From positions 1-34,090 of the IMG/VR virus record IMGVR_UViG_3300030406_004081: a stretch of DNA of 34,090 nt; one strand, given 5' to 3'. The notes under the pieces are model-generated. The model made no database searches. It had not been told where the DNA came from and saw nothing but the letters and a program-made list of their open reading frames with translations. The position numbers and the translations under genes are program-made. Shown piece by piece: positions 11,737 to 22,772 of the stretch. Source of the DNA: a virus. How positions within the stretch are numbered: position 1 is the stretch's first letter; each line of letters opens with the position of its first letter.

Positions 11737-11764
11737 AACTTGTTTCAACTTGTTTTATCAAGTT
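11737..11764. repeat. AACTTG direct repeat (10-bp period) plus inverted copy
   Basis: AACTTG at 11737-11742 and again at 11747-11752, exactly one helical turn apart. The inverted copy CAAGTT lies at 11759-11764. The first eight bases are the leader of terS and the rest are the last codons of the IbrB-like gene. The spacing is suggestive of a DNA-binding site, either a pac/cos-type TerS site or an operator. Confidence 0.45.
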
Positions 11765-12290
11765 CGTTTTTAGTAACTGGAATCCAAGAATTCGACCACT
11801 CAGCATCCTGAATCAAATCACTTTGAGGAATGCCCTGCCTATTTGCGAGCCTAATTACTTCCTCTTTTTCCATTTCTAATCTACTCATAATCTCCTGAAT
11901 AGAGCAATCCGACTCAATCATCTCTTTAACTATCTCAGCCATCTTCAGAACTAAATGAGTTCCTCTCGCTCTGTTGTGCCTAATCGTAGACATCTGAGTA
12001 GACGTTTTATCTAGGTTTAAAACATAACATACTGGGACTAAACCATTTGTCATCTTATATATTGTAGGATGAGCAGACACCTTCCATCTGTGAAATCCGT
12101 CGATGATTTCTTTTTTCTCGTTAGCTACGATAGGCTGAGTCCATCCGTTTTCTAATATGCTTTTTTTTAATAATCTCATCTCAGCAGGATAGACCTTATT
12201 AGGATTATAGCTGTTAGGGATAAGTCTATCTCTATCCTCCCAATAAACAGCGTTAACTGGCTGAGTTTTCCACGAACTATTTTTTACCAT
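11745..12290 (-). CDS. ibrB: IbrB-like ParB/sulfiredoxin-fold protein
   Basis: 181 aa. ParB-type N-terminal domain: DRLIPNSYNPNKVYPAEMRL, then LKKSILENGWTQPIVANEKK, then the signature IIDGFHRW (residues 62-69). A conserved NRARGTH segment (106-112) and a helix-turn-helix-like C-terminus (CSIQEIMSRLEMEKEEVIRL) follow. It begins 14 bases inside the end of the PAPS-reductase-like gene. That gene pair matches IbrA/IbrB of E. coli prophages, known as activators of eib immunoglobulin-binding genes. The biochemical role in phages is unresolved; no ParA is present, so plasmid partition is unlikely. Confidence 0.8.
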   Translation of the reverse strand: MVKNSSWKTQPVNAVYWEDRDRLIPNSYNPNKVYPAEMRLLKKSILENGWTQPIVANEKKEIIDGFHRWKVSAHPTIYKMTNGLVPVCYVLNLDKTSTQMSTIRHNRARGTHLVLKMAEIVKEMIESDCSIQEIMSRLEMEKEEVIRLANRQGIPQSDLIQDAEWSNSWIPVTKNELDKTS

Positions 12291-13512
12291 GTCTAATCAA
12301 AGCCTCCTTTTCAGTTATGTTTTTAGACTCTCTATGAGTAGTCCCTAATCTGTGCATTGAACCCCCCTGCCTATCCTTTCTATCTCCTTTCAGCGCTAAT
12401 CTACAAAAGAATTTCCAACTAGCCCCCGTTATGATATGAGGTACTCCATCGGGAATCTTGTCATCAGTTTTCCTATAGTGAGTCCTAATTAATGTATTGA
12501 TTCTCCCTTTCATCGCTCGTTTTTCCTGACCCTCATAGTTGTCTAAGAATACGTCAAAGTATTTACGCCAAGTCATATTATCAGGCTTAAAATCTGTATG
12601 TTTAGAGCGCCCTATTCGATGTCCGTATAGTTCAGAATTTGCGTATCTCATAGCAGTAGCAACCCCCTGAACCCTATTGAGCATCTTCTCCCATAATTCA
12701 GGAAAACACTCCTTATAGAGATGTAAACTCCTGACTGGCTCCTCTCCAAACGGAGGACAAACTCTCTGCTGAATCCAAGACTCAAATAAATGCGTTTTGT
12801 TAAAAATGTCATACGTCTTATTGTAGTCGAACCCCTTATCAGATACATATTTCCAAACGTCCTCACTTTTCCAGTCATAGATAGGATATGCGTTTATCGC
12901 CCTAACATATCTATGCTTTTTTTTAGCGACTTTTATAGGCCTCTTGTAATTTCTTAGCCATGCGAAATCTCCTTTCTTAGATGCAATCGCTCTATATCTC
13001 CTGAGGGACTCCTGAGTCCTGATTCCCATGACTACAGCGTAATATTTGCCTTCATACATTAACTTCATAAAAGATTCGACGTCCATATCAGCGTCATCTA
13101 TAAAACTAGGATGTTCTGTGATTCCCTGCTCAGGTAGTTCCCTGACCCATAATTCTTTTTTTGATCTATCCCAACAATACCACCAAGGCTCCTCATAACT
13201 ACATGAGTTTCGATGTTTTATAGGTAGACAAAACCATTTTAAATTTACATCAGGCCACTTCGAGACCCTTTCGACATATTCAATAGTCGGAGGATGAATA
13301 CACTCCTCATCGATAAAAACAACGTCTAAGGGTTTGTCTATTTTTAGCTGTTTTTTAACCTCTAAGCATAACTGGAGAACAGCAGTCGAATCCTTACCAC
13401 CTGAAAACATCACGACGACATTATCGTAAGTCTTAAATAAATGATGAATTCTATCTAGGGATTTGTCATATACATTTTCTTCAATTTCCTTCGATTTATG
13501 AATAGTCGCCAT
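12277..13512 (-). CDS. ibrA: IbrA-like PAPS-reductase-family PP-loop protein (DUF3440)
   Basis: 411 aa. PP-loop SGGKDS at residues 37-42 binds ATP, giving adenylating pyrophosphatase chemistry as in PAPS reductase, DndC and TtcA relatives. Further family marks are VFIDEE (64-69), GIRTQES (162-168) and PIYDWKSEDVW (209-219). The long C-terminal region (RVCPPFGEEPVRSLHLYKEC, GRSKHTDFKPDNMTWRKYF) corresponds to DUF3440 of IbrA proteins. It is followed by the ParB-domain partner in overlap and preceded by a zinc-ribbon gene and a cupin gene. Possible targets are sulfur transfer to nucleic acid or a regulatory adenylation. The substrate is unknown. Confidence 0.85.
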   Translation of the reverse strand: MATIHKSKEIEENVYDKSLDRIHHLFKTYDNVVVMFSGGKDSTAVLQLCLEVKKQLKIDKPLDVVFIDEECIHPPTIEYVERVSKWPDVNLKWFCLPIKHRNSCSYEEPWWYCWDRSKKELWVRELPEQGITEHPSFIDDADMDVESFMKLMYEGKYYAVVMGIRTQESLRRYRAIASKKGDFAWLRNYKRPIKVAKKKHRYVRAINAYPIYDWKSEDVWKYVSDKGFDYNKTYDIFNKTHLFESWIQQRVCPPFGEEPVRSLHLYKECFPELWEKMLNRVQGVATAMRYANSELYGHRIGRSKHTDFKPDNMTWRKYFDVFLDNYEGQEKRAMKGRINTLIRTHYRKTDDKIPDGVPHIITGASWKFFCRLALKGDRKDRQGGSMHRLGTTHRESKNITEKEALIRHGKK

Positions 13513-13513
13513 A

Positions 13514-13780
13514 TTATATCAATTTTTCATTTTCCGAGCATTGAGGGCATATCTGCCTCGTTTTTCCGTATGATACAAACCCCTTATAGTATAGAATATT
13601 ATTTGATGACGTTGAGATTCTATCTCTACCTACATCTTTCTCCCAACAACATCGACAACGAGTGCAATATTTTATCCTGATATCTGCCTGCTCTGAATCT
13701 TTGTTTTTATAGCGACCCGTTTTTTTTGGCTTATACGAACTCCGTCTGACCTTTCCCCATATCGTAAAGTCCCGACCCAT
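13514..13780 (-). CDS. 88-aa zinc-ribbon mini-protein
   Basis: Basic N-terminus (GRDFTIWGKVRRSSYKPKKT), then two Cys knuckles: CTRC-RCC at about residues 39-45 and CPQC near the end (about 78-81). That is the spacing of a single zinc ribbon. The ATG shares a base with the cupin stop (TAATG), and the next gene (IbrA-like) follows 1 base after its stop. It is probably a nucleic-acid-binding or adaptor subunit of the same module. No named family recognised. Confidence 0.7.
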   Translation of the reverse strand: MGRDFTIWGKVRRSSYKPKKTGRYKNKDSEQADIRIKYCTRCRCCWEKDVGRDRISTSSNNILYYKGFVSYGKTRQICPQCSENEKLI

Positions 13781-14523
13781 TATAGTTCTCTAGCAGATAC
13801 CCCATTAATAATCGTTTTGTTTATCATAGGATGGAACTCATCCTCTGCTCCGAAATCAGAATCAGGATGAAACGCAATAACATCCATAGAGGATTTTTTG
13901 TCTGTTACGAATCTATGTTCGCAATCAGGTTTAATTATAAAAATCATTCCAGTCTCTAAATGAAAACTCGATGATTTTGTCTCGCATATTCCTGAACCCT
14001 TGGCGATTATTCCAATCCTGACAGATGGATGAGTATGAAAACTCTGCTCTACTTTTTTAGGAAAATGTAAATGATTAAGACAACTCATCCCCTTTTTTAC
14101 TGGAGGGATAATGAGGGAATCTGTGCATCCGTTTATATATTTTAGACGTCCCTGAGATTCTATAGGGCCACCGACTAAAAAATAAGGCCTCTCCATCGTC
14201 ATTTTTATTATTATAGCCTTACCCTTAGAGTGTTGAGTGAATGAAAAATCATCCCCTACACTAGAAAACATCCCGTCTCCTAAGTTTATAGGTTTTCGGG
14301 ATTCAGTTGCTACTGAAAACTCTCCCTCCTCAACGAATAAATAATGACCATCTACAGACTGGCCTCTATACTTAGAATCTTTCTTAGAACTGCAATAAAC
14401 CTCAAAAGAAATCCCGTTGCTCTCAAAAGATTTTACGAGTCCGTGACTGCCTAGCCAACTTGTAAAGTTTTGATCTAGCGTCGTTTTCTTATTTTTGTTC
14501 TGATAAGTTTCGGGGATTTCCAT
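13780..14523 (-). CDS. Bicupin protein
   Basis: 247 aa with two beta-barrel halves. The N-terminal half (about 57-110: GHYLFVEEGEFSVA, INLGDGMFSSVG) is a degenerate cupin without metal ligands. The C-terminal half (about 150-215) keeps H151-x-H153, H163-T-H165, GIIAKGSG, then GMIFIIKPDCEHRF with H203, so a metal site is likely. Such proteins can be dioxygenases, isomerases or sensors. The start has no strong ribosome site and lies 49 bases inside the end of the previous membrane gene, suggesting coupling. Function in the phage is unknown. Confidence 0.75.
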   Translation of the reverse strand: MEIPETYQNKNKKTTLDQNFTSWLGSHGLVKSFESNGISFEVYCSSKKDSKYRGQSVDGHYLFVEEGEFSVATESRKPINLGDGMFSSVGDDFSFTQHSKGKAIIIKMTMERPYFLVGGPIESQGRLKYINGCTDSLIIPPVKKGMSCLNHLHFPKKVEQSFHTHPSVRIGIIAKGSGICETKSSSFHLETGMIFIIKPDCEHRFVTDKKSSMDVIAFHPDSDFGAEDEFHPMINKTIINGVSAREL

Positions 14524-14657
14524 TTGTCGATCTTATTTTCAATTCGATGCACTCTCCACAGAATACTCAGGATAAGACATAGCATCATTAGCATAGAAAA
14601 CTCCCAATACGGGAAATATTCTGTATTAAATAAAACCTCCCAATAGTATCTATTCAT
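14475..14657 (-). CDS. 60-aa membrane mini-protein
   Basis: One hydrophobic segment at about residues 19-36 (EFSMLMMLCLILSILWRV) between an aromatic N-terminus and a basic tail (KSPKLIRTKIRKRR). The ATG has a strong GAGGAG 4-5 bases upstream and overlaps the end of the ParB-like gene. It overlaps the start of the bicupin gene by 49 bases in a different frame. The positive tail suggests an N-out, C-in orientation. No family recognised. Confidence 0.65.
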   Translation of the reverse strand: MNRYYWEVLFNTEYFPYWEFSMLMMLCLILSILWRVHRIENKIDKWKSPKLIRTKIRKRR

Positions 14658-15231
14658 AACTCCTCACTAATAAAATTAAGGCGTCCTCAGTATCAGTCAA
14701 ATTATGCTCTATTTTAATATTATTAATGACTTTTATTAGTTCAGCCTTATGCTCATAAGATAAATCTAAAATAAATTCTGTTCTATCTCCCTTAACTACG
14801 TCGCTATCTTTTGCTGACTCTGTTGCATCGTCTAAGAGTTCAGGCATATCAAAAGACGGATTCGGAATATTTAGTCCCCAATTTTTCAGGCTGTCATAGT
14901 CCCATTCGTTCGCAATCTTATCCCAGTTCCATGAACCACCATTCGCATTTAAACGGATATTAAGTTCCCTCTCCTCATCTTCATCCAACTCAACCAGTAC
15001 AGCAGGAACAGACTCCATTCCTAAAAATTCAGCTACTTTCAGTCTCTGATGACCTCCTATAACTACATTTACTCTATCAGGATGATTATTGACTATAATA
15101 GGCTCAACGAACCCAAATTTTTCAATAGATAATTTTAAATCATTAAACTGATTCTCTGTTATTTCTCTAGGATTATACTCAGCCTCGATCAAGTCTTTAA
15201 TAACAACCCTCACCGATTTACCTTCTAACAC
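14650..15231 (-). CDS. ParB-like nuclease-domain protein
   Basis: 193 aa. ParB N-terminal domain: NPRE (residues 20-23), FGFVEPIIVNNH, IGGHQRL (58-64) and VPAVLVELDEDEERELNIRL. The C-terminal half is acidic with no DNA-methylase domain, although ParB domains of this type usually sit next to one. The start is GTG with GGAGAAAGG just upstream. It overlaps the Cys-rich gene by 14 bases. It may be a DNA-binding NTPase/nuclease-type regulator. The second ParB-fold gene in this phage, IbrB-like, is not closely similar. Confidence 0.82.
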   Translation of the reverse strand: MLEGKSVRVVIKDLIEAEYNPREITENQFNDLKLSIEKFGFVEPIIVNNHPDRVNVVIGGHQRLKVAEFLGMESVPAVLVELDEDEERELNIRLNANGGSWNWDKIANEWDYDSLKNWGLNIPNPSFDMPELLDDATESAKDSDVVKGDRTEFILDLSYEHKAELIKVINNIKIEHNLTDTEDALILLVRSYE

Positions 15232-15400
15232 CCTTTCTCCTTTTTTGTTTTAATGGACATTTTGACATCTGCGATAATTTATTAGGATTTTTTGCTATTC
15301 CGCAATATTTATCATTTTTATAGATTCCGCAAAATGGACAACTCCCCCCAGTTACGTTTTTAGGCGTTTTTTTATACTTTAAATGACAAAATTCATTCAT
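15218..15400 (-). CDS. 60-aa Cys-rich mini-protein
   Basis: Contains FCHLKYKK, GGSCPFCGIYKN, KYCGIAKN and SKCPLK: five Cys and one His that could ligate one zinc ion. It is basic throughout. The start overlaps the end of a 59-codon gene by 8 bases. The type is common among phage early or middle genes of unknown function; it may bind nucleic acid or a host protein. Confidence 0.6.
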   Translation of the reverse strand: MNEFCHLKYKKTPKNVTGGSCPFCGIYKNDKYCGIAKNPNKLSQMSKCPLKQKRRKGVRR

Positions 15401-15572
15401 TTAGATCAGATGTGAACCTGACAGAAATTCCGAACTCTGAGAGCGCATTAGCGAGTTTCCTTACCATCTGCTCGAACTCATCTCGGTCAGTTGGGTCATT
15501 TCTAACAACCCTCAAAGTCCATCCATCTTTTTTCTTAATTAATTGAACATCATCGAATTTAGGTTTTCTCAT
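15393..15572 (-). CDS. 59-aa hypothetical protein
   Basis: A gene of 59 codons filling the apparent gap after the replication gene. The ATG has AAGGAA 6 bases upstream. The sequence begins MRKPKFDDVQLIKKKDGW, continues TLRVVRNDPTDRDEFEQMVR, and ends with an amphipathic helix and GISVRFTSDLNE. It overlaps the next gene by 8 bases. The alternating strand-helix pattern looks like a small folded domain. Family not recognised. Confidence 0.65.
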   Translation of the reverse strand: MRKPKFDDVQLIKKKDGWTLRVVRNDPTDRDEFEQMVRKLANALSEFGISVRFTSDLNE

Positions 15573-15574
15573 TT

Positions 15575-16345
15575 CTATTCCTTAGTTGGTTTATAAAAAA
15601 CTTTACAGCAGGGACTCCCGTTAGCAATCTCAAAAGGAAATTTAGGATGATACTTTTTTCCACATTGTGAGCAGTAGGCAGTAAACTCCCCTGATATTTC
15701 ATTTTTTTCAAATAGTGAAAAGTCAATTCCTGACGACTGTTTTTCGTCATCCTCTCCAAAATCCCAAGTTTTGACGCACATTTTCCATTTCTTAATCTTG
15801 GTTTTTCCACGATACCAGTTGACAGACTCATAATGATTCCAAAACCTAGAGGCATTATCTAAATAATTAGGAATCTTTTTTTCTAAAAAGTATTCTTCAA
15901 CCTCTTTTAGTGTAGGCCTTGGATAATTTGTTTTCTTTTTAATTGGTTTAGATTCTATTTTATTATCTTCTATTATATTATTACGACCTTTCTCAACCTT
16001 TTTAGACCTTTCCTGACCTTTCACTAAATCAGGATAATTAGACTCGGCTCTGCGATGACCGATTTTCTGATTCTTCTCAAATCCTAGGAACTGGACGCAG
16101 ACATTTTCTTTAAATGCTACGAGTTTATATTTTACCATCTGATTTATTTTGTCCAGTATCCATTCAGCATCTAAATCACTTGATGGAATACAGAGATATT
16201 TTATTTCTAAAACGCTCCCCGTCATTTTTCCGTAGTCGTCCATAAATGGGAGCATTCTCATATATAACCATTGAGCATCCCTATCTAATTGATTGAAAAC
16301 TGGATCTATTGCGATTGTTCGATTAATCATTCTCCCCTTTGCCAT
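15575..16345 (-). CDS. Replisome-organiser-like replication protein
   Basis: 256 aa. The N-terminus (MAKGRMINRTIAIDPVFNQL, then YMRMLPFMDDYGKMTGS) is the winged-helix start typical of phage replication initiators and replisome organisers. A charged linker follows, then a DnaD-like block (FWNHYESVNWYRGKTKIKKW), and a C-terminal zinc motif (CSQCGKK ... CC). It likely binds the phage origin and recruits the host helicase, since the phage has no helicase or polymerase of its own. The start lies 23 bases inside the HNH gene end. Confidence 0.75.
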   Translation of the reverse strand: MAKGRMINRTIAIDPVFNQLDRDAQWLYMRMLPFMDDYGKMTGSVLEIKYLCIPSSDLDAEWILDKINQMVKYKLVAFKENVCVQFLGFEKNQKIGHRRAESNYPDLVKGQERSKKVEKGRNNIIEDNKIESKPIKKKTNYPRPTLKEVEEYFLEKKIPNYLDNASRFWNHYESVNWYRGKTKIKKWKMCVKTWDFGEDDEKQSSGIDFSLFEKNEISGEFTAYCSQCGKKYHPKFPFEIANGSPCCKVFYKPTKE

Positions 16346-16739
16346 CTTTTCGCTCCTTTAAAATTTTAAGTTTTTGTTTAAGTAGAGCATAAAATTCAGG
16401 ATTCTCGTATTCCCTTTTTTTACGAGTTTCCCTATTTCTTTTTAGTAGTCGATCAAAATTATCCTGACCAATTTTTTTAATCTTATGTTCTCTATGTTTC
16501 TCAGGATTTGCTGTAAGGTAGGAATGACATCCATAACACAAAGCCTCGCAATTCATCTCATCGAACCTAGTGGCGTAGGCTCTCCGTCCGAAAAAATGGC
16601 TATTATGTAGGCCACCCCTACCTCTGCTCTCAGGAAAAAACTTTCCGCACCTCTGACAAGTCCAATTATCCCTCTCTCTGATAAAGTCAGAAAAAACCTT
16701 ATCCCATTTATTTCGTTTTATAGACTTGCCCCAAGGCAT
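16323..16739 (-). CDS. HNH endonuclease
   Basis: 138 aa from the ATG that shares a base with the upstream stop (TGATG). A TTG one codon earlier is less likely. Zinc knuckle CQRC (residues 28-31) and CYGC (68-71) bracket the core LHNSHFFGRRAYATRFDEMN, with His48 and Asn63, and CHSY follows. The fold resembles NinG/HNH-type recombination nucleases in spacing. The basic C-terminal helix (NRETRKKREYENPEFYALL) would bind DNA. Placement beside the replication gene suggests recombination or branch resolution. Confidence 0.82.
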   Translation of the reverse strand: MPWGKSIKRNKWDKVFSDFIRERDNWTCQRCGKFFPESRGRGGLHNSHFFGRRAYATRFDEMNCEALCYGCHSYLTANPEKHREHKIKKIGQDNFDRLLKRNRETRKKREYENPEFYALLKQKLKILKERKDGKGEND

Positions 16740-17410
16740 CAAAACATCTCGTCAACTTTTGACTGCTCAAAGGACTTATCGTTGTTTTCTTTGACCCAAA
16801 TATCGAGACCAGTTGCGACATTCATCAGTCTATGAGTCATATTCCTAACTGCTACTTGCACCTCTTCAACGTCCTCAAAGAACTTAGAATCTCCTGCTTT
16901 GCGAGCGATAACAATATCGCAGGCCTTATTAAAGGACATTCCCCATTTAATATCTAAGGCCCTAGAGTCGTCTCTGTCTCTAACGTCTTTATATCCATAG
17001 TTTATTTTTTTCTCAGGTTGCTCAGTCACTATCTGCGATGTTTCGTCAGGCAGTTTATTCATATCGTCCTCAAATACCATATCGTCAGGGTCTGCAACCA
17101 TCCAAGACGTAGAGTCGGCAGTTACCACCATCTTAACTCCTAGTCTAGCCTTACCTGAGAATCCCATATCAATAATAGTATTATATAAGGCCTTTGAGAT
17201 TTGCCATTCAAAAGAATCGCCCTGCTCTATTTTGTACTGGTTATCCTTTCCGAATATGATTGGATTTCCCTTAACGAGTTTCGCAGGCATCGGATAAATG
17301 ATATTATTAAAATCATCTGTAGTCGGGCCGATAGCAGTTACGTCCTCAAGGCATTGAATGACGAATAAAGTATTCGCCTGCTTTTTGGTTATTTTGGTTT
17401 TTAAAGGCAT
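16739..17410 (-). CDS. Early protein with acidic tip, possible ssDNA-binding protein
   Basis: 223 aa, no named family. The middle (NPIIFGKDNQYKIEQGDSFE, ARLGVKMVVTADSTSWMVAD) could be beta-rich, and the C-terminus ends in a disordered, acidic and hydrophobic tip (EQSKVDEMF). That tip resembles the DDxPF-type tails by which ssDNA-binding proteins recruit partners. Position directly before the HNH and replication genes fits. This is a weak inference. The start has GGGGG about 8 bases upstream. Confidence 0.7.
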   Translation of the reverse strand: MPLKTKITKKQANTLFVIQCLEDVTAIGPTTDDFNNIIYPMPAKLVKGNPIIFGKDNQYKIEQGDSFEWQISKALYNTIIDMGFSGKARLGVKMVVTADSTSWMVADPDDMVFEDDMNKLPDETSQIVTEQPEKKINYGYKDVRDRDDSRALDIKWGMSFNKACDIVIARKAGDSKFFEDVEEVQVAVRNMTHRLMNVATGLDIWVKENNDKSFEQSKVDEMF

Positions 17411-17487
17411 ATTATAATCCCCCTTATTAGCTGTATGATTAGTCCGATAGTAATTAATCGGATAAAGATATTTTCTATTTTCTCCAT
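17401..17487 (-). CDS. 28-aa hydrophobic micro-ORF
   Basis: Reads MEKIENIFIRLITIGLIIQL then IRGIIICL, a single membrane helix. The ATG has AGGAG 8 bases before it, but that motif lies inside the codons of the preceding gene and may be chance. It spans the otherwise empty 17411-17474 stretch, which also contains the inverted repeat TCCGAT-N8-ATCGGA (17443-17462). Either a membrane micropeptide or simply leader sequence for the next gene. Confidence 0.3.
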   Translation of the reverse strand: MEKIENIFIRLITIGLIIQLIRGIIICL

Positions 17488-17825
17488 TCTACTTCTCCTC
17501 TTAGGTTTACATAGTCATTTATTAAATCATTAAAATACTGGACAAAGTGTTCTCCGTCCTCATCCTGATAAAAAGTTTTTTGCAGAACTACTCCTGACCA
17601 GTCTAATCTTTTATGCTTTTTTATCTCATCAAATATCTTAGGGTAGAAAACTCGGGCCGTCTCACTTATCATCTTTTTTCCTTCTCTTCTATTAAAGGGA
17701 ATCATCGTATTGCTGACGATTTCCTCCGTTTTTGCAGTCGTGATAAACGCCAACGAATCAGACCGCTTTCCTACTTGATAGAACCCGAGTCTCACTACCC
17801 ATTTGTTTTTATAAAAAACGGCCAT
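17475..17825 (-). CDS. 116-aa hypothetical early protein
   Basis: Not recognised. An N-terminal beta-like segment (FYKNKWVVRLGFYQVGKRSD, LAFITTAKTEEIVSN) leads into charged helices (ISETARVFYPKIFDEIKKHK) and an aromatic end (FYQDEDGEHFVQYFNDLIND). No Cys cluster or signal peptide. The ATG overlaps the stop of the winged-helix gene. It belongs to the early block of small proteins. Confidence 0.65.
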   Translation of the reverse strand: MAVFYKNKWVVRLGFYQVGKRSDSLAFITTAKTEEIVSNTMIPFNRREGKKMISETARVFYPKIFDEIKKHKRLDWSGVVLQKTFYQDEDGEHFVQYFNDLINDYVNLRGEVEWRK

Positions 17826-18049
17826 TATAAGGCTAATTCGCCCTCAGGAATTAGTTTATAAATGGCATGGCCTGACGTTGCTAGATTGTGGATATTCATT
17901 CCCTCTTTATTCAACTCATGAACGACAGCAGATAATCGATAACTCTTGAATAATTGAATCGCATCTCGCTGAGTTAATTTATGACCCTGCTGAAAATATC
18001 TTTTGATCCGTTCTTTTTTAGTAGGCTTTTTAATTTGGCTTTTTAACAT
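17825..18049 (-). CDS. Small winged-helix DNA-binding protein
   Basis: 74 aa. The block KKERIKRYFQQGHKLTQRDA, IQLFKSYRLSAVVHELNKEG, then a wing (HAIYKLIPEGEL) is the phage helix-turn-helix pattern in which a Leu-Thr-x-x-(D/E)A start is followed by RLxxxIxxLxxxG. It is likely a regulator of early or middle transcription, or a replication accessory factor. It overlaps the preceding gene by 20 bases, with GGAG upstream of the ATG. Confidence 0.75.
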   Translation of the reverse strand: MLKSQIKKPTKKERIKRYFQQGHKLTQRDAIQLFKSYRLSAVVHELNKEGMNIHNLATSGHAIYKLIPEGELAL

Positions 18050-18425
18050 TTAGCTTAACTCCCTTTACTTGCGACAGCCTCAAAGCTAACTCAGAGGCTA
18101 CCATTTTAACAAAATTATGATGTCTTTTTTCATAGTGTTTATAATGTTTGACGTTTTCTTTTTTGTCCTTGATTTGATGAAATAAGATGCCTAATTCGAT
18201 GACAATATCCGAAAGGCATCTCCAAGCCTGATGACCCGTAATGCTTTTAGAATCTTTCCAATACTCGCTATAACCGAATAGAGTTTTATGCCTTAGCTTT
18301 TTATATTCTTTTTTATAATCCATCAGGCAGGCCTCTTCAAAAATCTCAGTTCCTAACGCCATAAGGCCATCGTAATTCGTAAATAAATCACGATGACCCT
18401 TACAAGTTTCACAGATACAACTCAT
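18030..18425 (-). CDS. 131-aa hypothetical early protein with N-terminal Cys/His cluster
   Basis: The N-terminus MSCICETCKGHRD carries three Cys and a His, able to bind one zinc ion. The rest is helical and basic with many His/Lys/Tyr (KHYKHYEKRHHNFVKMVASE). It overlaps the upstream gene by 4 bases (ATGA type) and the downstream one by 20. No family recognised. Confidence 0.65.
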   Translation of the reverse strand: MSCICETCKGHRDLFTNYDGLMALGTEIFEEACLMDYKKEYKKLRHKTLFGYSEYWKDSKSITGHQAWRCLSDIVIELGILFHQIKDKKENVKHYKHYEKRHHNFVKMVASELALRLSQVKGVKLNVKKPN

Positions 18426-18907
18426 TTTTTCTCCCTATGAACTGTCTCTAATTCCTCAGAGAATTTAGTTTTCCATCTCCAAACGTCATCCTGAATCTTT
18501 TGCAGACTAGCCTCCATATCCTTTCCGTCCTGATGTTCTTTTGTATCATAGCAAGTCCACAGACCTTCAATGAGAGCGACAGTCTCGATTATAAAATTTG
18601 AGGGGAGCGAGTTGACAAATGATACGGAGTTCACTTCTGCGGAGTGTGTATCCTCTCCCCCCTCTAAAATTTCCATAGATTTAATAACTTTCTGAACAAA
18701 TCTAGTTCTGTCGCTTATTTTACGGCTGTCGTAGCCTACCTCTAAAACTCTCAAGTTTGGACATGACCCGACATAGGAATCAAATCCCTTCAACTTTGCA
18801 TCTGTCAATCTACTAAATAAATTCTCAAATGTGTCCTCAAGAATTACCTGAAAGTCGCATTCAGGATTAGAGTATTCAACAGTAGCGTACCATAAACATT
18901 CTTTCAT
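18422..18907 (-). CDS. 161-aa hypothetical early protein
   Basis: Start chosen at the second ATG because GGAGG lies 8 bases before it, while the ATG 15 bases upstream has none. Product begins MKECLWYATVEYSNPECDFQ and has a mixed alpha/beta pattern, with GYDSRKISDRTRFVQKVIKS and a charged C-terminal helix. Four or five Cys are scattered, with no zinc pattern. Function unknown. Confidence 0.65.
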   Translation of the reverse strand: MKECLWYATVEYSNPECDFQVILEDTFENLFSRLTDAKLKGFDSYVGSCPNLRVLEVGYDSRKISDRTRFVQKVIKSMEILEGGEDTHSAEVNSVSFVNSLPSNFIIETVALIEGLWTCYDTKEHQDGKDMEASLQKIQDDVWRWKTKFSEELETVHREKK

Positions 18908-18908
18908 C

Positions 18909-19151
18909 TTAACAACCTCCATCGCAACAGTCGCAGGATTTACGAGGCCATTTACCCGTCTTAATATCCTTAAACCTCTTCAATTTATCCCCGATTGCCC
19001 TAAGGCCGTAATAGTCGCCCCAACTTCCCCTCTGCGCTACGATTGCGAACTCTAGCGCAGTTTCATCAGTCCACTCGAACTCCTTAGGAGCGTCCTCTAG
19101 ATTTCTAAATACTAATGGGACTGATTCGTACATTTTTGGATTTTTAGCCAT
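18909..19151 (-). CDS. 80-aa early protein with C-terminal Cys cluster
   Basis: Acidic body (VFRNLEDAPKEFEWTDETAL, RGSWGDYYGLRAIGDKLKRF) and a C-terminus CDCCDGGC, an unusually dense four-Cys tail in eight residues. Such a tail may bind metal or be a redox centre. The gene follows the first operon gene after 2 bases. Family not recognised. Confidence 0.65.
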   Translation of the reverse strand: MAKNPKMYESVPLVFRNLEDAPKEFEWTDETALEFAIVAQRGSWGDYYGLRAIGDKLKRFKDIKTGKWPRKSCDCCDGGC

Positions 19152-19153
19152 GA

Positions 19154-19552
19154 CTATTCCTCCTCCTGAATATCTGCAATTCTGAAAGGCTCCTCATCGA
19201 ATCTCCATATCATATCTAGGTCATGTCTACCCTTATTCTCGATGATTTGCAAAACTTGATTTAGATAGCAAAATGCTGACATAGTAGGCAAGGTCTCCAT
19301 ATCATCCTCAGGTAGTCTATAAGCTGTAGGCTCTCCGTCAGAGTCAATCTCTACTAGGACATCAAAATCGATCACGATTTCATTATCCTTTAGTCCTATA
19401 TCCTTAATGATACCCATTCTCCTTTCAGTTGGATGTTTACCATTGTTTTTTAACAACTCTAATTCAGCGCCCCTCATCGCCTTACAAGCGATAATCTGAT
19501 TCCCTTTCTTGAGTAAGTCTTGGGCTTTTAGTAGGTCGTTTAAATATTCCAT
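19154..19552 (-). CDS. First gene of the leftward early operon, unknown
   Basis: 132 aa, acidic. The N-terminal helix (YLNDLLKAQDLLKKGNQIIA) is followed by a beta-like DNEIVIDFDVLVEIDSDGEP, and the end is very acidic (RIADIQEEE). AAAGGAG lies 8 bases before the ATG, one of the best ribosome sites in the window. As promoter-proximal early gene it may act on host functions, for instance as a nucleic-acid mimic given its charge, but that is speculation. Confidence 0.7.
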   Translation of the reverse strand: MEYLNDLLKAQDLLKKGNQIIACKAMRGAELELLKNNGKHPTERRMGIIKDIGLKDNEIVIDFDVLVEIDSDGEPTAYRLPEDDMETLPTMSAFCYLNQVLQIIENKGRHDLDMIWRFDEEPFRIADIQEEE

Positions 19553-19604
19553 GTTTGAACTCCTTTATTTTTGATTCATTTGTCGCTGAGATAATAATGA
19601 TAAA

Positions 19605-19633
19605 AATAAATTCAGCGCAAGTATTTTTGTAAA
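19605..19633 (-). promoter_or_regulatory. Possible promoter of the leftward operon
   Basis: Reading leftwards: TTTACA (19633-19628, 5/6 match to the -35 box), 17 bases, TTTATT (19610-19605, 4/6 match to -10). The region between this and the divergent plus-strand promoter is very AT-rich, so other boxes are possible. Placement 50 bases before the first gene is appropriate. Confidence 0.35.
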
Positions 19634-19692
19634 CTTTTATTATTTATTTTTTTATTCCTTATATATATACCGACGAGAAATAAACTTTTATT

Positions 19693-19711
19693 AATTATAT
19701 TGTAAATAATT
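19693..19711. promoter_or_regulatory. Palindromic operator candidate
   Basis: AATTAT-N7-ATAATT, abutting the -35 box of the plus-strand promoter. The size (19 bp) suits a dimeric XRE repressor such as the one at the end of the operon. AT-richness makes a chance palindrome quite possible. Confidence 0.3.
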
Positions 19712-19712
19712 G

Positions 19713-19742
19713 TTGACACTTATGCTCCAGTTTCTATATATT
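19713..19742 (+). promoter_or_regulatory. Sigma70-type promoter of the amidoligase operon
   Basis: Perfect TTGACA at 19713-19718 and TATATA/TATATT at 19735-19742, 16-18 bases apart. Transcription would begin near 19749, leaving a roughly 45-base leader before the amidoligase start. It is the clearest promoter in the window. Confidence 0.75.
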
Positions 19743-19793
19743 ATCACCATGACAAATGATACAAATAACAACAGTTCACAAAGGAGTAAAAAA

Positions 19794-20789
19794 ATGAAAG
19801 GTTTTTTTGATGAAACAAGAGCATTCGGAGTAGAAATAGAGTTCAGTCGTCCTCGTAACGTAAGTCACTCAGCTATCGCTTATCAGTTAACAGCACTAGG
19901 TATCGAGACTCATGAAGAGGGATATAATCATGAGACCCGTGAATGGTGGAAAGTCGTTTCAGACGCCTCAGTAGTAGCGACTCGTTACAACCTTCCTAAC
20001 GACGTTCCTCAGGTTGGTAGAAACGAAATCGTTAGTCCTCTTCTTTTCGGTAAAAATGGCCTAGAGCAAATCGAGAAAGTTTGTAACCTTCTTCAGAGCC
20101 TAGGTTGCACAGTAAACGTTTCTTGTGGCCTCCATGTCCATCATGATGTTAGGGATCAAATCACTAACGCCTCAGACGCTCAGGCTCAGGCTAACGTCGA
20201 AAAGTTGACCAAGTGGGTAGCGAAGTTCGAGCATTGCATTTACAAGCTAATCGCTCCTAGTCGTTTAGATAGCAGAAATTACTCTGTTCCAGTTCGCAAA
20301 TACTTTTACGCTAAGAGAATCCAGTTAGAAAGTGTCATGGAGGGCAATTTCAACGGATACAATAACAATAAAAACTCCATCGTTAGAGAGAGCGTTAAGG
20401 ACGTCGTAAAAAACAAGAATAGCAGAATTCTTCAGCACTACAGAGCGTGCGGACTTAACCTTTATCACATATTCGGCAGAGGTTCAGTTGAGTTTCGTTA
20501 TCATCAGGGTTCTCTAAATGCTGAGAAAATACAGAACTGGGTCATCCTTACTCAGATGATTTTAAATGCTATCGAGTCCAAGCGTTCTGTGACTCTTAAA
20601 TATGTTCAGAGCGGAACTGTTGGAATGGCAAAATTCAGGAAAGCGCTAGGCCTTGGAACTGTTAAAAATTCAGAGTTTAACTCTAGAATTAATGAGTATG
20701 TAAAAACAACTTATAAAAAATTCTCTAAGAGAGAGAGCGATTACATGAGACATCATGATTATAGAAATTATGTAATAGGAGGAATTTAA
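19794..20789 (+). CDS. Phage amidoligase (glutamine-synthetase-like fold)
   Basis: 331 aa from the ATG with AAGGAG 7 bases upstream. Upstream in-frame starts overlap the promoter and are rejected. Motifs of the GS-like amidoligase family: GVEIEF (residues 12-17, Glu14 and Glu16 as metal ligands), NEIVSPLLFG (77-86, Glu78), CGLHVHHD (111-118), and RGSVEFRYHQGS (229-240). These enzymes form amide bonds using ATP, joining an amino group to a glutamate-type carboxylate. It is first in an operon with a glutaminase domain and a gamma-glutamylcyclotransferase, which could supply ammonia and trim the product. Codons are noticeably richer in CGT and AAC than in the neighbouring genes, as for a highly expressed or host-adapted gene. 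Confidence 0.88.
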   Translation: MKGFFDETRAFGVEIEFSRPRNVSHSAIAYQLTALGIETHEEGYNHETREWWKVVSDASVVATRYNLPNDVPQVGRNEIVSPLLFGKNGLEQIEKVCNLLQSLGCTVNVSCGLHVHHDVRDQITNASDAQAQANVEKLTKWVAKFEHCIYKLIAPSRLDSRNYSVPVRKYFYAKRIQLESVMEGNFNGYNNNKNSIVRESVKDVVKNKNSRILQHYRACGLNLYHIFGRGSVEFRYHQGSLNAEKIQNWVILTQMILNAIESKRSVTLKYVQSGTVGMAKFRKALGLGTVKNSEFNSRINEYVKTTYKKFSKRESDYMRHHDYRNYVIGGI

Positions 20790-20791
20790 AA

Positions 20792-21715
20792 ATGTGTGGA
20801 TTAGCAGGAATAGTCTTTAAGAAAAAAAGCAGGGCCGTCACAGAGACGGCTCTCGCTCTAGATGGTTTTAAAAAAATGTTGGTGTCAGCAGAGTCTAGAG
20901 GTAGGCACTCAACGGGATTCGCTTTAGTCGATTCCTCAGGAGAATTTTATATTCATAAGTCTCCTAGGCCTGCCTCTGACTTTGTAAACAGAGACGACAC
21001 TCAGACAGCATTAGAGTTTATAGACAGCGAAACGTCTGTCGTTCTAGGTCATACTAGATACGGGACGAAAGGTTCTAGATATAACAATGCTAATAATCAT
21101 CCTATTAGGACTCAAACAGTTATCGGAACCCATAACGGCTCCGTTCAGAATGATGACGAACTGTTCGAGAAATTCGGGATGACTCGTTTTGCTGAGGTCG
21201 ATTCTGAGGTCTTGTTCAGGTTGTTCGCCACATCATCAGGGATAAAAGATTTTATCCAAAACAGACTCCCGATTGTTAGAGGACGGGTCTCGATGGTTTG
21301 GGCCGATACCAAGAATCCTAATATCGTCTATCTATATAAAGGTAATAATCCTCTAGAATGCGCCTATTCGCCTGAATATGGAGCGATTTTTTATGGAAGT
21401 ACCAAGGACATCGTAACAAGTTCAAACGTCTCAGATTTGCAGTTTATGAATGTTCCTGAAAATACCCTAATGATGGTAGATACTAGGACTCTTAAAATCA
21501 AAAAACAACGGGTCTCAGTTACGGCTCCCGTTTATAATAATCATTTTTATAATAAAAAAATCGGAGCCTATCAGATCAAAACCAAGAAAAACAAGGGCAG
21601 ATATTCTCATACTACGAAAAGATTTGTTCCTAGATTTTCGTTTCGTGACCAGTTAGAAATGTTTAAAAAAATAAAAGCCTCAGACGGCTCAACTATCAGA
21701 GTAAAGGAGAGATAA
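20792..21715 (+). CDS. Stand-alone class II glutamine amidotransferase
   Basis: 307 aa. Cys2 after the initiator Met (MCGLAGI) is the Ntn-hydrolase nucleophile. Further class II marks are GHTRYGTKG (86-94), NNHP (101-104), GTHNGSV (112-118), and EVDSEV (135-140). There is no acceptor domain (SIS, asparagine synthase or PRTase), so it is a separate glutaminase that must pass ammonia to a partner, most likely the adjacent amidoligase. AGGAGG lies 9 bases before the ATG, 2 bases after the previous stop. The C-terminus is basic (RYSHTTKRFVPRFSFRDQLE). Confidence 0.88.
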   Translation: MCGLAGIVFKKKSRAVTETALALDGFKKMLVSAESRGRHSTGFALVDSSGEFYIHKSPRPASDFVNRDDTQTALEFIDSETSVVLGHTRYGTKGSRYNNANNHPIRTQTVIGTHNGSVQNDDELFEKFGMTRFAEVDSEVLFRLFATSSGIKDFIQNRLPIVRGRVSMVWADTKNPNIVYLYKGNNPLECAYSPEYGAIFYGSTKDIVTSSNVSDLQFMNVPENTLMMVDTRTLKIKKQRVSVTAPVYNNHFYNKKIGAYQIKTKKNKGRYSHTTKRFVPRFSFRDQLEMFKKIKASDGSTIRVKER

Positions 21716-21716
21716 T

Positions 21717-22433
21717 ATGACAAATTTTCTATTTGTTTATGGAACCCTAAAAACGGGAGGAGGAAATAACTTCATTCTGAAAGGTTCCAAGTTCATAGGC
21801 AGGACTCAGCTAGACGACTTTTTTATGTTTTCAAATAGTCATTTTCCTTATATCCTGCATAAAAAAGACGTTCCCCTGATTCTATTGCAGGACTATTATG
21901 AAAGGACTGGGGATAGTTCTTGCCAAGTAATAGGAGAAGTTTATCAGGTAGATGATCGAACTCTAAATAGAGTCAGGCAACTAGAGGGAGTTCCTCATCA
22001 TTATAAATCTGACACTTTTGAATTTTCTATTGAGAGATGGAATGAGGATATGTCTATTAAGACATTTAAGCAGGGTCTAGCGGAGTTTTATATCCCGTCT
22101 GAGCCTGAGATGGCTTATAGAAATAAAATGATAGATTCAGGCTATTTTAACGCTGACAAGAATTCTAATGTCATTTGGAACGTCTATTTAGATGAACAAA
22201 AATTATCAGGGACTGCGCCTAAAATCGTCAGTCAGATGAGGTCTCGTTCATTTGACACGGACGCTCGAAATGTTCATGAGTATATGAATTCTGTAAAGAA
22301 TCGATTGCAGAAAGTTTATAAAAATTCTAATATTCCTCTAGAGGATGAGGGTCATTTTTTAAACTTGCTCTCACTAAAATGTATTATCGCTGAGTGGGAT
22401 GCACCGAAAAACGATAGGATATTATATGCTTGA
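21717..22433 (+). CDS. Gamma-glutamylcyclotransferase-like (AIG2) protein
   Basis: 238 aa. The YGTLK motif (residues 8-12) binds the substrate carboxylate, and Glu90 in RQLEGVPHHY is the expected catalytic acid. VIGEVYQV (71-78) is the typical barrel strand. Members release 5-oxoproline from gamma-glutamyl amides. Residues from about 107 onward form a roughly 130-aa extension (ending FLNLLSLKCIIAEWD) not found in minimal GGCT proteins, so this one may recognise a larger, phage-specific substrate. The gene starts one base after the glutaminase stop, with GGAGA upstream. Confidence 0.85.
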   Translation: MTNFLFVYGTLKTGGGNNFILKGSKFIGRTQLDDFFMFSNSHFPYILHKKDVPLILLQDYYERTGDSSCQVIGEVYQVDDRTLNRVRQLEGVPHHYKSDTFEFSIERWNEDMSIKTFKQGLAEFYIPSEPEMAYRNKMIDSGYFNADKNSNVIWNVYLDEQKLSGTAPKIVSQMRSRSFDTDARNVHEYMNSVKNRLQKVYKNSNIPLEDEGHFLNLLSLKCIIAEWDAPKNDRILYA

Positions 22434-22635
22434 GTCAATCAGAAAACAGATAAAAGATTCAGGAATTAAACAGAAATTTTTAGCTGAACAGTTGGGAATC
22501 AGTACGTCAATGTTAAGTCTAGTCCTTAGCGGAGAACGAAAATTGTCAGATGAAAAATGGGATAAGCTAATTACCTTTTTATCTGTATCTAGAAATTATA
22601 AGGAATTGCTTTCGAGCAATGCTCCAACATCATAG
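22426..22635 (+). CDS. XRE-family regulator
   Basis: 69 aa from the ATG overlapping the GGCT stop by 8 bases, with AGGA 7 bases upstream. An earlier in-frame ATG at 22399 lacks a site. Helix-turn-helix: ESIRKQIKDSGIKQKFLAEQ, then LGISTSMLSLVLSGERKLSD, a classic Cro/XRE pattern (QKFLAEQLGIS ... SLVLSGER). It probably represses or sets the level of its own operon through the palindrome at the promoter. Confidence 0.88.
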   Translation: MLESIRKQIKDSGIKQKFLAEQLGISTSMLSLVLSGERKLSDEKWDKLITFLSVSRNYKELLSSNAPTS

Positions 22636-22772
22636 CGAGTTTTGGTTTCGGCCTTGGTAGGGAGATTTTTTACTCCATTCAATTTCCTTACTATTATAAC
22701 GAGAGGTCTTTTGTAAACTCGCTCAGAGGGAGGGGATGATAACTGTTGTCGTTGACAACTGCCCCTCTCTCT
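22634..22772. other. Structured convergent intergenic region (two nested/adjacent hairpins)
   Basis: Arms AGCGAGTTT (22634-22642) and AAACTCGCT (22715-22723) pair perfectly over 9 bp. Immediately after, AGAGGGAGGGG (22725-22735) pairs with CCCCTCTCTCT (22762-22772) over 11 bp (one G-U in plus RNA), enclosing GTTGTC-GTT-GACAAC (745-759 of the same kilobase). There is no proper U-run after either stem, though TTTTTT lies at 22666-22671. It separates two convergent transcripts, so a bidirectional terminator or a stable small RNA are the main options. Confidence 0.6.

Follow-up and report, generated by a model that had tools for sequence, protein, structure and literature searches.

To which molecule does a phage attach an amide when the only genes running against the rest of its genome encode an amide ligase and its partners? 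The window analyzed here is a complete IMG/VR virus record (IMGVR_UViG_3300030406_004081, 34,090 bases) with genes almost all on the minus strand. The block at 19794-22635 is the sole one on the plus strand, the remaining plus-strand open reading frames (ORFs) in the ORF listing of the window being short and antisense. As an earlier, sequence-only reading of this DNA had stated, the block consists of closely spaced or overlapping genes, in the order amidoligase (AMID), class II glutaminase (GAT), gamma-glutamyl cyclotransferase (GGCT) and a small helix-turn-helix (HTH) protein, with 2 nt between AMID and GAT, 1 nt between GAT and GGCT and an 8-nt overlap of GGCT and HTH. That phages carry modules of amidoligase, glutaminase and GGCT has been known since 2009; they have been assumed to act on the wall or on protein, and the literature searched shows no substrate for them. 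In relatives of the window the three enzymes sit directly behind DNA-decorating genes, and therefore the product is most likely an amide on a modified DNA base. That AMID and GAT act on a carboxyl group on DNA, rather than on wall or protein, has in our estimate an even chance of being right.

Active sites and folds of the enzymes

All four proteins matched Pfam families: Amidoligase_2 (5e-32), GATase_6 (1.8e-14), GGACT (1.6e-11) and HTH_3 (2.5e-8). AMID scored 112 bits against Amidoligase_2 (PF12224), where the cut-off is 22. Invariance of the predicted catalytic residues was judged over 20-31 relatives. E14, E16, E78, H114, H116, R217, N222, E233 and R235 are invariant in 31 sequences of AMID, C2, R89, N115, G116 and D137 in 20 sequences of GAT, which places the latter among class II glutamine amidotransferases, and Y8-G9, L11, K12 and E90 in the relatives of GGCT. 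The enzyme identities and intact active sites claimed in the sequence-only reading thus hold, with Cys2, Glu14/16 and Glu90 kept in relatives. The operon is conserved at 52-75% identity in two close relatives, L003 and L004, and four overlapping genes kept there with intact sites are far beyond chance.

Since a sequence search of AMID against solved structures gave no true match, we searched with the fold of its model (pLDDT 89, pTM 0.90). The top matches in the PDB (Foldseek) were carboxylate-amine ligases of the glutamine synthetase (GS) fold, namely glutamine synthetase, YbdK, Dop/PafA and 4hpp, and AMID is a predicted ATP-dependent amide ligase. GAT is nearest to the amidotransferase domains of GlmS and PurF. 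It ends, in this lineage, in a conserved tail, DGS(T/K)I(R/K)K (ASDGSTIRKVK-like; D298, G299, S300 and I302 invariant in 20/20 relatives), which is possibly a docking motif or the protein's own substrate. The model of GGCT (pLDDT 88) matches YtfP and human gamma-glutamylamine cyclotransferase (GGACT) with bound 5-oxoproline (3juc). The predicted AIG2 fold and the YG(T/S)L motif, here YGTL, are common to GGCT and both human GGACT and E. coli YtfP, and the human catalytic Glu82 aligns with Glu90, whereas GGCT of the window has an additional C-terminal domain (SM) without PDB match. These results support the previously suggested logic of an amide ligase fed by a glutaminase and accompanied by a cyclotransferase of the gamma-glutamylamine type.

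Two other kinds of chemistry could employ such enzymes. Human GGACT cleaves gamma-glutamyl-epsilon-lysine, and its resemblance to GGCT, the match of the AMID fold to PafA/Dop and the invariant GAT tail are consistent with a ligase that makes gamma-glutamyl isopeptides on host or phage proteins, a GGACT-type cyclotransferase that removes them and SM as adaptor or substrate. However, SM was rejected as a Pup-like tag because stand-alone SM proteins have no conserved C-terminal Glu/Gln, and the upstream genes in relatives indicate DNA, so that modification of proteins or peptides is distinctly unlikely. The operon's enzyme set also equals that of gamma-glutamyl protecting cycles, known from butirosin (BtrJ/BtrG) and ergothioneine (EgtA/EgtC), which comprises a ligase, a glutaminase-fold hydrolase and a cyclotransferase. 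The corresponding small-molecule chemistry would attach, use and remove a protecting group, feeding a nucleotide or other metabolite. Although GAT does match EgtC weakly (1.4e-5), it is closer to GlmS/PurF, and no biosynthetic partner genes were recognised in the window; we consider such a cycle improbable.

Genes beside the module in related phages

The genes accompanying the module argue for DNA. A DNA-modification gene was found near it in 19 of the 24 clusters with the full module, compared with 4 of the 128 other amidoligase clusters, two of the 19 having only a divergently oriented, ordinary C5-methyltransferase. The module is fixed while the genes upstream are swapped, at least four enzyme types being found directly before AMID. 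In 11 contigs the neighbour of the module is a TAGT glycosyltransferase (PF20691; scanned module-adjacent copies, 3e-37 to 2e-44), accompanied in some by a nucleotide-sugar epimerase; the best PDB match of the latter is 6zl6, which we take to be a UDP-glucuronic acid 4-epimerase, and UDP-glucuronate decarboxylases also match. Another upstream protein is nearest to T4 dCMP hydroxymethylase (best PDB match 1b49, 9e-25), and the one in L114 was assigned, by reading of its sequence, as an N4/N6-type DNA methyltransferase. In L105 and L109, CmoX and CmoA directly precede the module. CmoX of L105 matches SpCmoX (8YF3) best, with 1.7e-65 versus 4e-32 for HaeIII methylase; the CmoX proteins of both contigs possess SPPC and the Arg that distinguishes CmoX (Arg350; GRSV in place of the GNSV of methyltransferases), and CmoA of the relatives matches YecO/CmoA best (8.5e-26), which identifies the pair there. 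An independent case is L040, where another amidoligase lies near CmoX and CmoA. Independent, too, are the culturable Arthrobacter phages Ottawa and Kharcho, in which GGCT, AMID and GAT lie clustered with genes for ParB proteins, for a Tet_JBP-like protein (1.1e-8, which is below the Pfam cut-off; its homologues bear the annotation Tet-like J-binding protein) and for a kinase akin to those of TET/ADDT cassettes. In Ottawa (L300, 7201-15311) there are three ParB proteins, and the Tet_JBP-like protein and the kinase are annotated as oxidoreductase and adenylate kinase, respectively.

At least one of GAT, GGCT and SM accompanies the amidoligase in 136 of 152 clusters, so that homologues are not scattered without partners, and the AMID-GAT-GGCT order is kept in about 24 clusters. 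AMID-GAT-GGCT/SM is present in about 20 contigs of marine origin, in most of them immediately ahead of TerL and portal. Three of the relatives that have no module carry TET/JBP, another GAT, ADDT and a kinase in the same slot before TerL. Marine phages L224 (3246-6222) and L247 (6436-9709) have there TET/JBP, class II GAT, ADDT and a P-loop kinase, a different hypermodification cassette that bears a glutaminase.

Several points weigh against a DNA target. The main weakness is that it was deduced from relatives, because the window has no recognisable base-modifying gene: TAGT, CmoX, hydroxymethylase, TET and ADDT were not recognised in the window, L003, L004 or L115, and neither a 5-carboxymethylcytosine (5cxmC) system nor a TAGT/TET island was found in the window, where searches gave no PF00145, CmoX or CmoA match. 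The 24 clusters with the full module come from a single lineage and cannot be counted as independent, even if the genes upstream of them are not alike. The position before TerL might be a site for cargo in general. The DNA-modification genes searched for were missing from most other amidoligase loci, so the family as a whole need not share this role. It is also not obvious what GGCT would do in a simple amidation.

The reaction that we infer would begin with activation of a carboxyl by the GS-fold AMID, which would use ATP to form an acyl-phosphate, as in GS. The free class II glutaminase would supply ammonia from glutamine, and AMID would link this to the activated carboxyl. The part of the GGACT-type cyclotransferase would be to remove gamma-glutamyl, in the form of 5-oxoproline, from a wrong product or an intermediate, with SM probably docking it to the ligase. 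The carboxyl would most likely be carried by a hypermodified base, either as 5cxmC or within a uronic-acid sugar attached to hydroxymethylcytosine. Once amidated, the phage DNA would be better hidden from nucleases of the host. The subclade of the window would have transferred the unit to a strand of its own, where its promoter and that of the divergent early operon have a candidate operator in common.

The SM domain, regulation and inheritance of the operon

The domain fused to GGCT was overlooked in the sequence-only reading. The last approximately 100 residues of GGCT gave no family match in Pfam, PHROG or NCBIfam, and are homologous to separate proteins of about 75-85 aa (profile-profile probability 97.9, E 3e-13). 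In a survey of 9,149 ORFs of at most 170 aa, of which 154 lie directly downstream of an amidoligase, 55 of the 63 matches to stand-alone SM had that position (p 2e-93); these matches come from phages and prophages of Bacteroidota, Desulfovibrionales and others. L058 has AMID, GAT, SM and GGCT as four separate genes, and 1 nt after GGCT of Geobacillus phage GR1 there is a match to SM, though a weak one (E 0.0018). ORF44 of PaP3 was also considered as a homologue and gave no match. Judged from these sequence comparisons, SM appears to be a new, previously unlisted fourth component of AMID/GAT/GGCT modules, and one to look for in them. The CmoX-CmoA-amidoligase arrangement likewise appears to be new; neither it nor SM was found mentioned in the literature searched, which leaves out most subscription journals.

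Positions of the operon's genes, of the candidate regulatory sites and of two context genes are collected in Table 1. The -35 element TTGACA of the operon promoter is kept in L003 and L004. In these two genomes and in the window, each of the divergent transcripts has the 9-mer GACAAATGA at its predicted start, the site at the divergent promoter matching the right-hand one in inverted orientation perfectly over 13 nt in L003 and at 94% over 16 nt in L004. None of 1,500 shuffling trials gave a 9-mer common to all three regions as an inverted pair, a significance that is overstated because the three regions are homologous. Both divergent promoters share the conserved GACAAATGA and the operon is therefore probably wired to the phage early operon. 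The operon's own HTH protein is the probable reader of the shared candidate operator, although a second winged-HTH protein, encoded at 17825-18049, could also bind it. The claim that the operon is self-regulated is thus plausible as far as the conserved site at its own start is concerned, and weakened by the same site at the divergent early promoter and by the other winged HTH, which also make its independent expression doubtful. GACAAATGA was not found at the AMID promoters of those module-bearing relatives checked that have no close HTH protein. The possible third, intragenic copy could be a coding constraint (Ser-Phe-Val) instead of a site. Between the two divergent promoters, at 19658-19670, there is a TATATATATA tract conserved in all three close genomes.

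Table 1. Coordinates of the operon, candidate regulatory sites and context genes in the window
Feature	Position	Strand	Evidence
PAPS-reductase/DUF3440 PP-loop protein (context)	12277..13512	-	conserved in L003, L004
ParB_N-domain protein (context)	14650..15231	-	PHROG; PF02195 survey
Possible third, intragenic copy TTGACAAATGA	18612..18622	+	same place in L003, L004
Candidate operator GACAAATGA at start of divergent early minus-strand operon	19576..19584	-	
Sigma70-type operon promoter TTGACA-18-TATATT	19713..19742	+	11/12 match
Candidate operator ATGACAAATGA at predicted operon transcription start	19749..19759	+	identical in L003, L004; inverted copy at divergent promoter
GS-fold amidoligase (Amidoligase_2), 331 aa	19794..20789	+	Pfam, invariant residues, structure model
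Free-standing class II glutamine amidotransferase/glutaminase	20792..21715	+	PF13522, GlmS/PurF relatives, Cys2 and partners invariant
GGCT, entire ORF	21717-22433	+	
GGACT/AIG2-type gamma-glutamyl(amine) cyclotransferase domain	21717..22094	+	PF06094, structure match 3juc, alignment
C-terminal SM domain of GGCT	22134..22430	+	profile-profile match
XRE/Cro-type HTH regulator, 69 aa	22426..22635	+	HTH_3 2.5e-8; 70-73% identical in L003, L004
Hairpin between convergent genes, probable terminator	22725..22772	unassigned	-25 kcal/mol, z -4.0

The mechanical ORF of AMID starts at TTG 19710. We chose ATG 19794 as its start because of the ribosome-binding site (AAAGGAGT) and conservation in three relatives, and the numbering of Glu14 and Glu16 follows from it. 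A leaderless start at 19749 (MTND), the frame of which is open in the window, L003 and L004, was disfavoured and a DNA site favoured at that position, because the ribosome-binding site and ATG 19794 are conserved and the left promoter of the window has the motif without an ATG. For the HTH gene the conserved ATG 22426 is the most likely start.

The operon had also been called moron-like. Relatives with a TerL up to 78% identical to the query have no module. A clean vertical co-inheritance was rejected, as distances correlate only moderately (rho of 0.51 for AMID-TerL, 0.80 for GAT-GGCT and 0.86 for TerL-portal). A recent moron peculiar to this phage was ruled out as well, as the module is present in L003, L004 and about 20 distant relatives. 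From its distribution among the sequenced contigs, the module is best described as accessory, gained and lost, at the scale of the wider lineage and as an old core operon in the window's subclade.

ParB_N proteins were found in the window, L003, L004, L115, L110 and L114, and a PF02195 survey detected none in module-bearing genomes with TAGT, CmoX or hydroxymethylase. In the window the PAPS-type gene adjoins two ParB_N genes (11745-12290 and 14650-15231); a PDB search with its protein gave no match. The PAPS-type and ParB proteins may be candidates for the base-modifying step that was not recognised in the window. L002, compared over positions 12673-20874 of the window, is a near-identical phage up to 20137, with only scattered single-nucleotide polymorphisms (SNPs), eight of them clustered in the PAPS gene (12673-12926). 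In 20138-20874 there are 52 SNPs, a mosaic or allele swap within the AMID gene, and the L002 contig stops just beyond. The host of the window was not found; the nearest bacterial amidoligases are 31-33% identical, bar one 117-residue fragment at 43%.

Comparison with known systems

The enzyme families and their linkage are already known. AMID, class II GAT and GGCT/AIG2 form the cassette of phiEco32-, LUZ24- and RIO-1-like phages, published as a peptidoglycan-modification pathway (PMC5498523, PMC11945000, PMC10580990, PMC11318856), an idea that the later papers trace to Iyer et al. 2009. By this established view of the same three families in other phages, the ligase would change wall peptides after infection and thereby block rival phages, which for the window we regard as unlikely. 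The cassette of phiEco32, LUZ24, PaP3 and RIO-1 shares Amidoligase_2, class II GAT and GGCT/AIG2 with the window, but adds a COOH-NH2 ligase and an ATP-grasp enzyme and sits among replication genes. The COOH-NH2 ligase (PF14395) is absent in the window, L003, L004 and L103, PaP3 serving as positive control, and no ATP-grasp enzyme was found among window proteins of at least about 130 aa scanned with PHROGs or Pfam. Furthermore, GGCT of the window is fused to SM, and its relatives have DNA-modification genes upstream. The preference of the sequence-only reading for wall or protein as target is consequently not supported, as neighbours in the lineage indicate DNA.

With the TET/TAGT/ADDT hypermodification islands the module shares the slot before TerL in close relatives and the company of TAGT, whereas no amidoligase step was found for such islands in the literature searched. 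An amide on DNA is known from the CmoA-CmoX-CmoY system of Synechococcus phage S-B43, in which CmoX makes 5-carboxymethylcytosine and glycine is attached to this by CmoY, an ATP-dependent amide ligase. A glutaminase domain occurs in one family among the relatives of CmoY, for which ammonia is the predicted substrate (PMC12783734). The same paper gives an m/z of 286.1 for 5-carboxymethyl-dC; the calculated m/z of its amide is about 285.1. In L105 and L109 CmoX is likewise accompanied by a predicted ATP-dependent amide ligase, AMID and GAT occupying the position where CmoY would be. CmoY is, however, AsnB-type, AMP-forming and glycine-using, while these relatives would use a GS-fold ligase with a separate glutaminase, and the window itself has neither CmoX nor CmoA. 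We tentatively propose, with somewhat less than an even chance of being correct, that the GS-fold amidoligase and the free glutaminase constitute a DNA amide ligase of a new class, which takes the place of the AsnB-type CmoY without being homologous to it and amidates carboxyls on hypermodified DNA, and that SM, which neighbours amidoligases in many phages and prophages, is a widespread partner coupling the ligase to the gamma-glutamyl cyclotransferase. If true, phage DNA hypermodification would gain a further class of enzyme. The module is fixed behind exchangeable DNA-modifying enzymes, among them CmoX-CmoA, for which the next step is known to be amide formation, and the question of its target is therefore open to a direct test by liquid chromatography-mass spectrometry.

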